A stretch of 52,926 bases of DNA from Aigarchaeota archaeon. Its GTDB lineage: Archaea > Thermoproteota > Nitrososphaeria_A > Caldarchaeales > Wolframiiraptoraceae. The notes below the pieces were generated by a model. It ran no database searches. It saw nothing but the letters and a program-made list of their open reading frames with translations, and was not told the DNA's origin. The position numbers were made by a program, and so were the translations under genes. Positions 37,965 to 44,301 of this stretch are shown here, piece after piece. The stretch is from assembly GCA_025058515.1 (NCBI GenBank), contig JANXDW010000043.1:1-52926 (forward strand), read 5' to 3'. Within the stretch, counting starts at the first letter, position 1. Each line of letters opens with the position of its first letter.

Positions 37965-38432
37965 CTATAAGAGATTATTATCAATGTTATTAGATTTTCT
38001 ATCACGTTCTTCTTCTATCTCTCCTCCCTCATGCTGACTCAACTGAGATGTAAATTGCTCAAGCATCTTCTTAACTGAATTTTTAGTTAAGATACCTGCT
38101 TCGATCATGTTAACGATCGAATTTGGAGAAGCTTCACCTACAACCTTTCCTACAACTCCCTTTATCTGCCTCCATCTGAGATCTGTATTACCACTCTTAG
38201 ACTTGTAGATTATTCCAAGAACCTCCGCGACCTTAGTGAATTTTATATTCCTAATTGTATCTAGATCGATCTTTGAGACTGCTTCGATATATATTAAACC
38301 TTGAGATTGATCTCTTTCAGGGAAGATACTTGGATCTTTGAAGTAGCTGGGAGGTATAAAAGATTTACACGTATTTAGTATGATGAACTTTCTAAAACGT
38401 TCTAGAGTTGTCTTAACTTCTATCTTAACCAT
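37965..38432 (-). CDS. Hypothetical protein
   Basis: 155 residues with no recognisable family. Residues 1-90 alternate strand and helix (MVKIEVKTTLERFRKFIILN, KIDLDTIRNIKFTKVAEVLG). The C-terminal tail is highly charged and probably disordered (EGGEIEEERDRKSNNIDNN). It is encoded divergently from the SMC-kleisin-kite operon across a 239-base AT-rich region, so shared regulation is possible. Confidence 0.55.
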   Translation of the reverse strand: MVKIEVKTTLERFRKFIILNTCKSFIPPSYFKDPSIFPERDQSQGLIYIEAVSKIDLDTIRNIKFTKVAEVLGIIYKSKSGNTDLRWRQIKGVVGKVVGEASPNSIVNMIEAGILTKNSVKKMLEQFTSQLSQHEGGEIEEERDRKSNNIDNNLL

Positions 38433-38671: not shown

Positions 38672-40417
38672 ATGGGTGTATCTGAAAGCTCTGTTGAAGC
38701 CATTAGAGAAAGAACATCATCTAGGAGAACCTATATCCGTGAAGTAATCTTGGAGAACTTCATGAGTCACGAATACTCTAGAATACCTTTGAACCCTAGG
38801 ATAAATATAGTTACTGGACCGAATGGTGCAGGTAAATCGAGTATACTCTTAGGGATAGCAGTAGCGCTAGGTCAGACATATACAGAGAGGAGCCAGAGGT
38901 TAAGCGACCTCATTAGGAGAGGTGAAGAATCTGCTAGAGTGTCTATAGTATTTGATAATAAAGAAGTAGATGGTGAGAGACCTATACCGTGGATAAACTC
39001 AGACCAGCTGGTAATAACTAGATACATCAAGAAGAATGGAGATTACTGGCATTACGTAAATAATAGATTTAAGACAAAGGCAGAAGTTGAGTATCTCCTC
39101 CAACAGCTTGGAATAAACCCGAACAACATGTTGATAATTATGCATCAGAACATGATAGAACAATTTGCAGCAAAGAGTAATATCGAGAAACTGAAGATGG
39201 TTGAAGATGCTATTGGAGCCTCGCATTTTAGACGTAGAATAATCGAAGCTGAGGAGAAGCTGAAGAATACGATCTCCGAAGCCCAGACTCTTAAGAGAGC
39301 ATTAGATGAAGCTAAGGCAGCTGTAGAGTACTGGCGAGACGAATATGAGAAACTAGTAAAGAAGAATATGCTCGAAGAACAGAAGAAGAATCTAGAACTT
39401 GAGTATTCTTGGGCTGAAGTCCAAGAAGTAGAAGAAGATATCTATAGATTGCAAGAAAAGAGAGAGGCGCTCAAGATAGAGGCTTTGAAACTAAGAGGAG
39501 AAGTAGATTACCATCATGAAGAAGCTGGGAAATTGAGAGAAGAATTATTAGAATTGTTTAAGAGTAAAGAGTCTCTAGAATCTTTTGAGAGGAAGCTTGA
39601 ATCAACTATTGAGGAGTACGTTGCAGAAGCTTTAGCAAGATACAAGTTAGAGATAAACCAGAATGCAATTAAGAAGATAGATTCAGAGATCAGTAGACTA
39701 GAATCTCTGAGAAATGAGAAGATAGCTAAGGCTCTGGTTATAGGGGAGAGACCTAAAAACATTAGGAGAACATCAGAGATAATTGAAGATATAAAGACCG
39801 TTACTTTGAAGATTGCTTCTCTAGGAGAAATATCTCCAGAAGCTGAAGACATGTACCTGATAGCGGATGCAAGATATAGAGAGACTGAAGTTAAATCTCA
39901 GCAGGTTGAAGAAAATCTTAAGAAAGCACTTGAAGAAGTAGAGCATAGAAAAGAGAATTGGAGAAACTTCCTAAGACAAGTAATAAGTGAGGTAGAGCCT
40001 AGATATAATGCTATATTATCTTACGTAGATGGAGCCGGGAAGATTATGTTAAGAAATTTGGAGAATCCAGAAGAAGCTCATCTAGAATTATTTGTTGGGT
40101 TTAGAGGTGCGGGACCCGTATTACTCGATGCATACACTCTAAGTGGTGGAGAGAGGATCGTGGCCACACTCGCATTCCTCTTAGCTTTGCAGAACTATGT
40201 TAAATCTCCTTTCAGAGCAGTAGATGAATTTGACGTCCACCTAGACCCACTGAATAGAGAGAGAATGGTCAAGTTAATTATAGCTTCTGCTAAGAACTCT
40301 TCAGATTCACAGTACTTTATAATTACTCCTGGAAAGCTTCCAGTAGAAGAAGATGTAAACATCCTAGTAGTACAAAATATTAGTGGAAGATCTATGGTGG
40401 GAAAAGTCGGTGAATAA
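38672..40417 (+). CDS. Short SMC-family ATPase with Smc5/6-like head, apparently hinge-less
   Basis: 581 residues. The N-terminal head has VILENFMSHEY, Walker A GPNGAGKS (49-56) and the Q-loop IIMHQNMIEQF (Q159). The C-terminal head has the signature LSGGER (490-495) and Walker B FRAVDEFDVHLDPLNRE (D518, E519). PFRxxDEFDV is Smc6-like and SQYFIITPGKLP is Smc5-like. Between the heads lie only about 255 residues, rich in E, K, L and R, forming two coiled-coil arms with no 150-residue hinge and no Rad50 CxxC hook. Full SMCs have over 1000 residues. It is the first gene of a three-gene operon with a kleisin and a kite protein. A role in chromosome organisation, repair or element defence is inferred. 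Confidence 0.85.
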   Translation: MGVSESSVEAIRERTSSRRTYIREVILENFMSHEYSRIPLNPRINIVTGPNGAGKSSILLGIAVALGQTYTERSQRLSDLIRRGEESARVSIVFDNKEVDGERPIPWINSDQLVITRYIKKNGDYWHYVNNRFKTKAEVEYLLQQLGINPNNMLIIMHQNMIEQFAAKSNIEKLKMVEDAIGASHFRRRIIEAEEKLKNTISEAQTLKRALDEAKAAVEYWRDEYEKLVKKNMLEEQKKNLELEYSWAEVQEVEEDIYRLQEKREALKIEALKLRGEVDYHHEEAGKLREELLELFKSKESLESFERKLESTIEEYVAEALARYKLEINQNAIKKIDSEISRLESLRNEKIAKALVIGERPKNIRRTSEIIEDIKTVTLKIASLGEISPEAEDMYLIADARYRETEVKSQQVEENLKKALEEVEHRKENWRNFLRQVISEVEPRYNAILSYVDGAGKIMLRNLENPEEAHLELFVGFRGAGPVLLDAYTLSGGERIVATLAFLLALQNYVKSPFRAVDEFDVHLDPLNRERMVKLIIASAKNSSDSQYFIITPGKLPVEEDVNILVVQNISGRSMVGKVGE

Positions 40418-41171
40418 GATATCTAGAGCATATAGTCGAGAAGAAGTTGAGAGGATAATCTCGATACTAGAGAACGTTGAGAAGAAGGGGATAGATCCAT
40501 TCACAGTAGACGTTAGAGAATTATTACTTAAGCTTAAGAAGATGCTTGAAGAAAATCCTAGCTTAGAGTATTATACTCTAGATGCAGAAGTTCTCTACAA
40601 GATCGCTACAATAATAGCCCTCCAAAATAAGTGGCTCACCGATAAAGCTAGATCCCTCTTTATAGATTCCCAACTGATCTCTTCACGATTGGCAGCATTA
40701 GATAAGAAGTCTATAGTTCAAGCATTCTTAAAGGTATGGTCTCCAATAATCTCACTCGGTCAGCTAACACCTCAAAGAATACAACATGGAATAGATCATT
40801 TCCTAAGCCTTCCACCTAGAAGAGAAGAGAAGACATTTGGTTGGAAGCTCACAGACAAGGAAGCTGAACTAAGCCGTATAGCTTTAGAGAAAGAAAAAGA
40901 GGAGATGGAAGAAAAGATGAAGAAACTATTTCAAGAACTTGTCGAGGAAGCAAGAAAAGTTGGTGAAGTTGATTACTGGAGATTCATACTTAGACAGAGT
41001 TTAGAGGAAACGTATGATAGAGCGTATACTCTAAGCTTCTTGATTACAGAAGGGTATGTAGAAGTTAAGAGGAATCCTTTAAAAAATGAGATAAGATTGA
41101 TTCCAAATGATAACAAGGTTTCTAGAAAGAACGTGATGTCGCTTGTCATAAGCTTGGGGGGAAGTAAATGA
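40410..41171 (+). CDS. Kleisin-like subunit (ScpA/Nse4-like)
   Basis: 253 residues from the GTG at 40410, which overlaps the SMC stop by eight bases; a GTG at 40383 is an alternative. The N-terminal part (SREEVERIISILENVEKKGI, VDVRELLLKLKKMLEE, AEVLYKIATIIALQNKWL) follows the helix pattern of the ScpA kleisin N-domain that binds the SMC neck. A charged central stretch (about residues 145-190) links to a C-terminal winged-helix-like part (ITEGYVEVKRNPLKNEIRLI), which would bind the head cap of the partner. It lies between the ATPase and the kite gene, as in scpAB and Jet/Wadjet operons. Confidence 0.65.
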   Translation: MNKISRAYSREEVERIISILENVEKKGIDPFTVDVRELLLKLKKMLEENPSLEYYTLDAEVLYKIATIIALQNKWLTDKARSLFIDSQLISSRLAALDKKSIVQAFLKVWSPIISLGQLTPQRIQHGIDHFLSLPPRREEKTFGWKLTDKEAELSRIALEKEKEEMEEKMKKLFQELVEEARKVGEVDYWRFILRQSLEETYDRAYTLSFLITEGYVEVKRNPLKNEIRLIPNDNKVSRKNVMSLVISLGGSK

Positions 41172-41743
41172 GCGGTGAAGAAAAGATATCTAGGAAATTA
41201 ATGATCGCTGCGACTATGCTGTTCTTCAGAAGCCATAGAAATCCAGGGGTGAGAGGATGGGAGTTAAAGAATAGGCTAGGAAAAAACTATATGAAGATAC
41301 TTGAATTACTAAATCATAAACTGAGTGAGCTTGGATTACAGGTAAAGACTGTCTTTGAAGATGAGTCTAGCCAAGACCTAGATAGAGCTAAATTCTACGT
41401 AACCCTAACCCATCCATTGACTATGTCCGACCTAGTAACCTCAGAGTATAGGATAGATGAGATCGCAGTACTCGCGATAACATTGTCGATAATATTTAGT
41501 AGAGGTGGAAAAGCATCAGTTAAAGATGTTATGGAGGTCTTAGAGACAAAGCTCCCAAAATGGAAAGCAGAGACATATCTTGAGAGAGCTATAAGGAGAG
41601 GATATATCAACAAGACTGAAGACGATGTATTAACAGTAGGATGGAGAGCAAAAGTAGAGTTAGAACCTAGAGAATTACTAAAATCTATACTAGAAGCACA
41701 GACAAAAGTAGAGACAAAGATAGATAAAGAAGAGCTAAAATAG
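41168..41743 (+). CDS. Tandem winged-helix kite protein with MAGE/Nse3-like second half
   Basis: 191 residues, starting in a 4-base ATGA overlap with the kleisin stop. Two winged-helix domains are apparent. The second (about residues 95-170: IDEIAVLAITLSIIFSRGGK, KDVMEVLETKLPKW, AIRRGYINKTEDDVLTVGWRAKVELEPRELL) follows the order of elements in the eukaryotic MAGE/Nse3 domain, including the Gly-Trp-Arg-Ala turn before the last helix. Kite proteins (ScpB, MukE, Nse1, Nse3) bind the kleisin middle. A bacterial ScpB relationship is the alternative. The similarity is by eye and needs profile search. Confidence 0.6.
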   Translation: MSGEEKISRKLMIAATMLFFRSHRNPGVRGWELKNRLGKNYMKILELLNHKLSELGLQVKTVFEDESSQDLDRAKFYVTLTHPLTMSDLVTSEYRIDEIAVLAITLSIIFSRGGKASVKDVMEVLETKLPKWKAETYLERAIRRGYINKTEDDVLTVGWRAKVELEPRELLKSILEAQTKVETKIDKEELK

Positions 41744-43440: not shown

Positions 43441-44301
43441 TTAACCTAATGTAAATCTAGAGAGCTTTCTTACAAACTCTTTTACATCGATTCTAGGTAT
43501 AGTTAACTGTTGGTATATTGAACTTTTTCCAGATACTTTAATCAGTATATTATCTTCAACCTCCTCGATCTCGTAGAACAGCCCACTTGAACCTTTAAAT
43601 CTAGTAAGATAGCCAGATCCACTCTCAATAATACTAGAGATCTTCAATCTAAAATCTTTGATTACTTCATCTGTATCTATATCTCCTGCAACATCAGCAA
43701 TCTCTTTGAGAATCGATGGTAGATCTCTCTTAATCTTCTCAATAATCTCTTCTCTGAGAGTAGAGAGCTCCTCTATTACTTTATCTCTAACAGGTTTCGG
43801 CATCATAGCTAATGATCTCCTAACATCCTTATTGAGAATCTTCTTTAGATGAGTAAATGAATCGCCTACTCGGATCTTTGCTTCCTTAATCCAATCATAG
43901 ATTGTATCTTTTGAGATTCCTAATCCTCTAGATGCTTCCTCTACATTCTTCCACACACCCTCATTGATACATCTTAAGATGAACTTTCCCTTCTCAGCTG
44001 ATGTTAGCTCTTCTCGATTTGTATGTATTATCGCTGCTATCTCTATTGCTTCTTTACGATTACATTCGTATACTAGGCATGGTGCTTTATCTACATTAAG
44101 GAGCTTCAAGGCTTCTAGCCTAGTCCCACCATCGAATACTTCATACTCTTCATCAGCTATCTTTCTAACAAGTAGTGGTTTGATGATCTTCTTTGATCTA
44201 TAAGTCTCGATTATTCCTTGGATGATCTCTGGACTTCTAACTTCTCTAGGATTGTAGTCTGCGATCTTTAAAGAATTTACCGGTATCCATTGGACCTCCA
44301 T
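43441..44301 (-). CDS. ParB-like N-terminal domain protein
   Basis: 286 residues. The N-terminal ParB/Srx domain has VNSLKIADYNPRE, KPLLVRKIADEEYEVFDGGTRLEALKLL and AIIHTNREELTSAEKGKF. A helix-turn-helix follows (VEEASRGLGISKDTIYDWI). The C-terminal 150 residues are helical then beta-rich and unlike the CTPase ParB C-terminus. There is no adjacent ParA. On mobile elements such proteins act in partition or as regulators. The start overlaps the preceding small gene by 25 bases, giving a three-gene operon with the RHH gene. Confidence 0.75.
   Translation of the reverse strand: MEVQWIPVNSLKIADYNPREVRSPEIIQGIIETYRSKKIIKPLLVRKIADEEYEVFDGGTRLEALKLLNVDKAPCLVYECNRKEAIEIAAIIHTNREELTSAEKGKFILRCINEGVWKNVEEASRGLGISKDTIYDWIKEAKIRVGDSFTHLKKILNKDVRRSLAMMPKPVRDKVIEELSTLREEIIEKIKRDLPSILKEIADVAGDIDTDEVIKDFRLKISSIIESGSGYLTRFKGSSGLFYEIEEVEDNILIKVSGKSSIYQQLTIPRIDVKEFVRKLSRFTLG

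Follow-up and report, generated by a model that had tools for sequence, protein, structure and literature searches.

The window (the whole 52,926-nucleotide stretch of DNA analysed), from a heat-loving archaeon, encodes an SMC-type ATPase of unusually small size, a kleisin and a KITE protein, and the explanation that we consider probable is that the three form a homodimeric, hingeless DNA clamp of the Smc5/6 lineage, the complex itself, its stoichiometry, the clamp cycle and the cellular role being inferred. The initial annotation had read the three genes as a scaled-down SMC-kleisin-KITE operon akin to an archaeal Smc5/6 complex, a reading now supported by sequence profiles and head-domain trees as far as the families of the proteins are concerned, though only weakly for the KITE. 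The genes are the following:

38672..40417, plus strand: SMC-type ATPase (mini-SMC), 581 aa, ATG start
40383..41171, plus strand: kleisin, 262 aa from the GTG at 40383 (the longest form) or 253 aa from the GTG at 40410
41168..41743, plus strand: KITE protein, 191 aa, ATG start

The open reading frames of this block (38672-41743), previously annotated as overlapping by 8 and 4 bases, were confirmed. The kleisin and KITE genes overlap by 4 bases and the 8-base figure for the SMC/kleisin pair depends on the GTG at 40410 being the kleisin start; an identical SMC/kleisin overlap of 8 bases occurs in the relative at locus L039. The source assembly comprises 1.47 Mb and is 95% complete. Relatives were scanned with an SMC C-terminal motif, as the KITE alignment was too unconserved for this purpose, a procedure that favours close relatives and could miss Asgard archaea. 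The closest named relatives of the trio found in this way are genomes of Candidatus Geocrenenecus, which belong to the Wolframiiraptor group of Caldarchaeales ("Aigarchaeota"), and other named relatives carrying it include Bathyarchaeota and Methanomethylicota. Three long matches of the motif scan (1181-1201 aa) turned out to be canonical SMC proteins.

The AlphaFold2 model of the mini-SMC, built on 36 sequences (pLDDT 86), consists of an N-terminal head, a coiled-coil hairpin and a C-terminal head. The two helices predicted for the hairpin, residues 184-297 (114 residues) and 302-452, agree with the approximately 255 residues counted earlier between the heads; they are joined by a turn of 4 residues (298-301) in which the hairpin ends, with no hinge dimerisation domain on long arms, and the return strand is interrupted at the joint before it reaches the C-head. 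At 0.15 nm per residue, the 114-residue helix corresponds to an arm of ~17 nm; a length of about 49 nm is given for bacterial Smc arms (PMC5526789). The lack of a hook, also proposed in the initial annotation, is consistent with the absence of cysteine at the apex of the window protein. Since the Pfam family SMC_hinge went unreported even for canonical SMC, its absence was not counted and the loss of the hinge rests on the structure model. The mini-SMC is thus predicted to be devoid of both hinge and hook, with the reservation that a monomer model cannot show a possible dimerisation of the arm tips. Among relatives the apex is unconserved in sequence and variable in length, and complete mini-SMC frames across the phylum range from about 570 to 760 aa. 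In a Foldseek search the best match of the model was the SMC head and joint of 5xei (E-value 7e-25), followed by Smc5/6 heads (4e-21). The former structure was solved from crystals of a Pyrococcus Smc fragment comprising head and joint, and the natural mini-SMC looks like that engineered truncation.

In the mechanism proposed here, the arms of the ATPase would end just above the head-proximal joint and the single SMC gene would provide a homodimer of heads. One kleisin would bridge the two SMCs, with its N-terminal helical domain on one neck and its C-terminal winged helix on the other cap, and two KITE copies would bind the kleisin linker, giving a 2:1:2 stoichiometry. Upon ATP binding the heads would engage, and heads, necks, kleisin and KITE would close around the DNA duplex; ATP hydrolysis would then release the DNA from the clamp. 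Yeast Smc5/6 encircles DNA with its heads, its necks and Nse1-3-4, the N-domain of Nse4 being placed on the neck of Smc6 and the WHD of Nse4 on the head of Smc5 (PMC9191643), and sub-complexes of hinge-less yeast Smc5 and Smc6 associate in the presence of ATP (PMC8327961). Since arms that lack a hinge cannot build the large SMC ring, a device that clamps, bridges or moves in short steps is more probable than one extruding loops over long distances; likewise, as the parts of a clamp are encoded whereas those of a ring (hinge and long arms) are missing, a homodimeric ATP-driven clamp is favoured over a long-range extruder. In the cell the trio would probably act next to the canonical SMC in basic maintenance of the chromosome (recombination, repair linked to replication, or DNA topology), a role for which there is no direct functional evidence.

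The alternative that best survives, although it is judged unlikely, is a true loop extruder, in which the apex would dimerise via the arm tips or an unseen partner to build a miniature SMC ring taking small DNA steps. The trio retains all the hallmarks of an SMC-kleisin-KITE motor, yeast Smc5/6 extrudes loops (PMC10132971), and some Bathyarchaeia possess a long, CxxC hook-bearing paralogue that could pair with another SMC. However, the predicted apex is a short turn and no domain, with neither conserved sequence nor constant length, and mini-Smc proteins engineered in B. subtilis, which have a hinge but arms of the wrong length, keep their ATPase activity but fail in redistribution and in DNA entrapment (PMC5344682).

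The assignment of the ATPase to the Smc5/6 lineage relies on several comparisons. The Walker A motif GPNGAGKSS, the signature SGGER and the Walker B DE are invariant or nearly so in 36 relatives. The Smc6-like SPFR..DEFDV and Smc5-like SQYF.ITP signatures, on which the initial annotation had drawn, are both present; in alignments, human Smc6 carries the former, and the Smc5 proteins of human and yeast carry the latter. As a single sequence, the mini-SMC matched Pfam SMC_N (6e-38) and, in the PDB, yeast Smc5 as the top hit (8e-35); a profile of 36 members retrieved human Smc6 (1e-66) and yeast Smc5 (2e-66) and, lower, Pyrococcus yayanosii Smc (2e-50) and Smc2 (5e-39). The host genome also encodes a canonical SMC of 1135 aa, and none of its 44 PDB matches below 1e-20 is a Smc5/6 protein. 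In head-domain trees the mini-SMCs and a set of hook-bearing paralogues form one clade (support 96-98), which groups with Smc5 and Smc6 apart from canonical SMC and Rad50 (support 94) and apart from canonical SMC and ASRP (support 92). Five residues of the mini-SMC (N45, N152, F165, R515, and P553) are common to the 3 eukaryotic Smc5/6 sequences and to at most 1 of 14 canonical SMCs. Residue H523 is instead common to canonical SMC, and the mini-SMC is therefore not simply a diverged Smc6. The ATPase heads accordingly group with Smc5/Smc6 in the PDB profile ranking and in the trees, the latter including only three eukaryotic Smc5/6 sequences and no Asgard sequences and having long branches.

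The kleisin and the KITE protein were characterized in the same manner. A single kleisin sequence matched Pfam only weakly (Nse4_C, 0.039), whereas a profile of 41 members retrieved Nse4 (6e-7), the Nse4-like chain EID3 (6e-5) and ScpA (0.02) from the PDB, and Nse4_C was matched by 28 of the 41 members (best 3.5e-7). Its AlphaFold2 fold begins with a helical domain that includes a long helix, continues through a linker containing short helices and ends in a C-terminal winged helix, and matched yeast Nse4 in two structures (1.7e-4 and 1.2e-3) and then the ScpA C-domain. Judged from both the profile and the predicted fold, the kleisin qualifies as Nse4-type, with ScpA second. For the window KITE protein, the Pfam matches were MAGE (0.001, over residues 78-166) and Nse1 (0.045), with no match to RING; when its members were compared with 24,736 families, these two were the most matched (MAGE in 9 of 41, best 1e-4; Nse1 in 8 of 41, best 3e-4), and the profile found nothing credible in the PDB. 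MAGE and Nse1 correspond exactly to the pair of KITE proteins in Smc5/6, which points to such an identity without proving it, the assignment being weak by sequence and lacking a predicted fold. Only one KITE match exists in the host genome, not two distinct genes for Nse1 and Nse3. The second and third subunits belonging to unrelated families would have spoken against the initial annotation; this was not the case, with the former leading to Nse4 and then ScpA and the latter weakly to MAGE/Nse3 and Nse1.

These rankings also bear on the possibility that the trio is a shortened canonical condensin of the archaeal/bacterial Smc-ScpA(B) type, with which it shares the SMC-kleisin(-KITE) layout and the fold of the kleisin C-domain. 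ScpA C-domains come next in the kleisin fold and profile rankings, and the top fold match of the ATPase, 5xei, is a Pyrococcus Smc construct. Nevertheless, this alternative was already disfavoured and seems very improbable: Smc and ScpA rank below Smc5/6 and Nse4 in the sequence profiles and fall apart from the trio's ATPase in the tree as far as Smc is concerned, Smc-ScpA(B) has full-length arms with a hinge and an ScpA-type kleisin, features that the trio does not show, and most archaeal Smc-ScpA complexes have no KITE (PMC7055376). In addition, the canonical SMC is a separate gene set in the same lineage, as the host has its own and relatives carry a kleisin-like gene beside theirs. As a control that had not been planned, a second, weak match of the kleisin profile directly adjoins the canonical SMC gene, the position where ScpA is expected, in 7 of the 7 relatives checked, those in which both are listed.

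With thresholds of 1e-20 for kleisin and 1e-15 for SMC matches, the trio was detected in full in 122 of the 300 genomes of the phylum, one or two of its genes in 7 and none in 171; the KITE gene was found in 125. Six of the seven genomes with a partial trio are 70-78% complete and in the seventh the kleisin runs off the end of a contig. The three genes are consecutive and on the same strand in 81 of 88 loci with a KITE gene, and chance can be excluded because of this common order and their co-occurrence. At least one of them is carried by every genome (44/44) of the order of the host. Such a spread is typical of a core system of the chromosome. As a separate observation, the mini-SMC gene of one Methanomethylicota MAG is split into two frames of 119 and 458 aa (L143:4945-6709), probably by a frameshift or an assembly error.

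A defence system, Wadjet (JetABCD)-like or of another SMC-like type, that lacks its nuclease finds little room in this distribution. Wadjet also encodes kleisin, KITE and SMC in one operon, and PADLOC returned generic matches at the ATPase level (mad3, 1e-31; JetC, 7e-7). However, JetABCD is MukBEF-like, includes the Toprim nuclease JetD and displays the patchy distribution of defence systems, whereas the conserved trio contains neither JetD nor another nuclease, its kleisin and KITE gave no PADLOC match and its genes are universal in the order. Searches of plasmids, phages and viral contigs did not find the trio, which agrees better with a core role on the chromosome than with defence, and the Jet/Wadjet-like set contemplated in the initial annotation remains unsupported and a very slight prospect.

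The least tenable explanation, a Rad50- or ASRP (coalescin)-type protein with unrelated neighbours, draws on a similar length (the ASRP model has 593 positions) and on the ABC head common to these archaeal SMC-superfamily ATPases, but was already refuted for the ATPase by profiles and trees, which place it with Smc5/6 rather than with Rad50/RecF, the grouping that would have refuted the initial annotation, and leave ASRP and Rad50 outside the mini-SMC clade, and it conflicts with the zinc hook of these proteins, missing in the window protein, with their lack of kleisin and KITE (for Rad50, PMC10586767), with the independent match of the kleisin to Nse4 and with the Mre11-like gene of the host, which adjoins another, separate Rad50-like protein. 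The latter (G000:C19 34409-36385, equivalent to L080:4410-6386) is unusually short (658 aa) and keeps a CPTC hook motif.

The hook-bearing members of the mini-SMC clade are long paralogues (1039-1067 aa) that share the Smc5/6-like heads but bear, midway along the arm, a CxxC motif like that of Rad50. They were found only in four Bathyarchaeota MAGs, not adjacent to kleisin or KITE genes:

L120:1657-4860: long paralogue
L139:2941-6060: long paralogue
L136:166-2427: long paralogue, partial
L156:6465-8300: long paralogue, partly masked

As three of these four genomes also contain the kleisin and KITE of the trio family, a second Smc5/6-type SMC has arisen there. The host genome has one member of the mini-SMC family only, not two different subunits corresponding to Smc5 plus Smc6.

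The trio resembles eukaryotic Smc5/6 in the sequence and signatures of the heads, the Nse4-type kleisin and the predicted clamp geometry, and perhaps in its KITE, which matches MAGE/Nse1 only weakly; it differs from eukaryotic Smc5/6 by having a single SMC (homodimer) with no hinge and short arms, and one KITE gene without RING; Nse2, Nse5, and Nse6 were not seen in or near the operon. An archaeal "SMC5/6-related" SMC has already been published (Yoshinaga and Inagaki, 2021, cited in PMC9389158), to which the mini-SMC very probably belongs if its position in the tree is a guide; the accessible text of PMC9389158 mentions no kleisin and does not deal with arm length or a missing hinge in these proteins. 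A minimal hingeless trio was not found described in the literature searched. The van Hooff et al. 2024 preprint, which reportedly deals with the prokaryotic roots of SMC complexes, possibly covers archaeal Smc5/6-like complexes.

Hinge and long arms are regarded as fundamental in SMC motors, and the SMC complexes of archaea had been assumed to function without KITE subunits (PMC7055376). With a conserved hingeless archaeal trio, nature itself would provide a case in which clamping is uncoupled from ring formation and extrusion, and the trio would offer a small, thermostable relative, amenable to reconstitution, with which the pre-eukaryotic function of Smc5/6 could be studied. Being core to several archaeal lineages, it may indicate how the eukaryotic Smc5/6 machine started. 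Much more tentatively, it can be speculated that the trio is a pre-duplication, homodimeric form of Smc5/6 acting as a hingeless ATP-driven clamp, from which Smc5 and Smc6 each kept different ancestral archaeal-type features; if true, an SMC-kleisin-KITE machine can function without hinge or ring. Loop extrusion, ancestry to Smc5/6 and a physical complex are all matters of inference, co-occurrence and gene order bearing only indirectly on the last of these.

Concerning the genes around the trio, an Lhr-type helicase is encoded nearby in 38 surveyed loci from several lineages (for example L046, L048, L053, L060, L073, L117:9621-12566, and L152), in 22 directly 3' of the KITE gene and mostly in convergent orientation, and is absent beside the operon of the window. 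Several loci of Methanomethylicota type have a gene for a eukaryote-type DNA topoisomerase IB immediately upstream, on the strand opposite to the trio (L152:904-2442, the only member whose family was tested; the same cluster occurs in L059, L060, L061, L143, L146, and L150). These neighbours, which are not co-transcribed with the trio, hint at DNA topology or repair.

Other genes were observed in the surroundings. At L057:211-3515 the trio is immediately preceded, on the other strand, by a Rad50-like/Mre11-like pair, recognised from the starts of the sequences with no profile test. A family of ~230-aa proteins with no Pfam/NCBIfam match is encoded near the trio at L060:2200-2916 and in 24 other loci. 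Upstream of the trio, the window itself encodes a 155-aa protein of no known family (37965-38432, minus strand), conserved at this position in 18 loci, and near the SMC operon, past a radical-SAM gene, a ParB-type protein with HTH (43441-44301, minus strand; TIGR00180, 76 bits).
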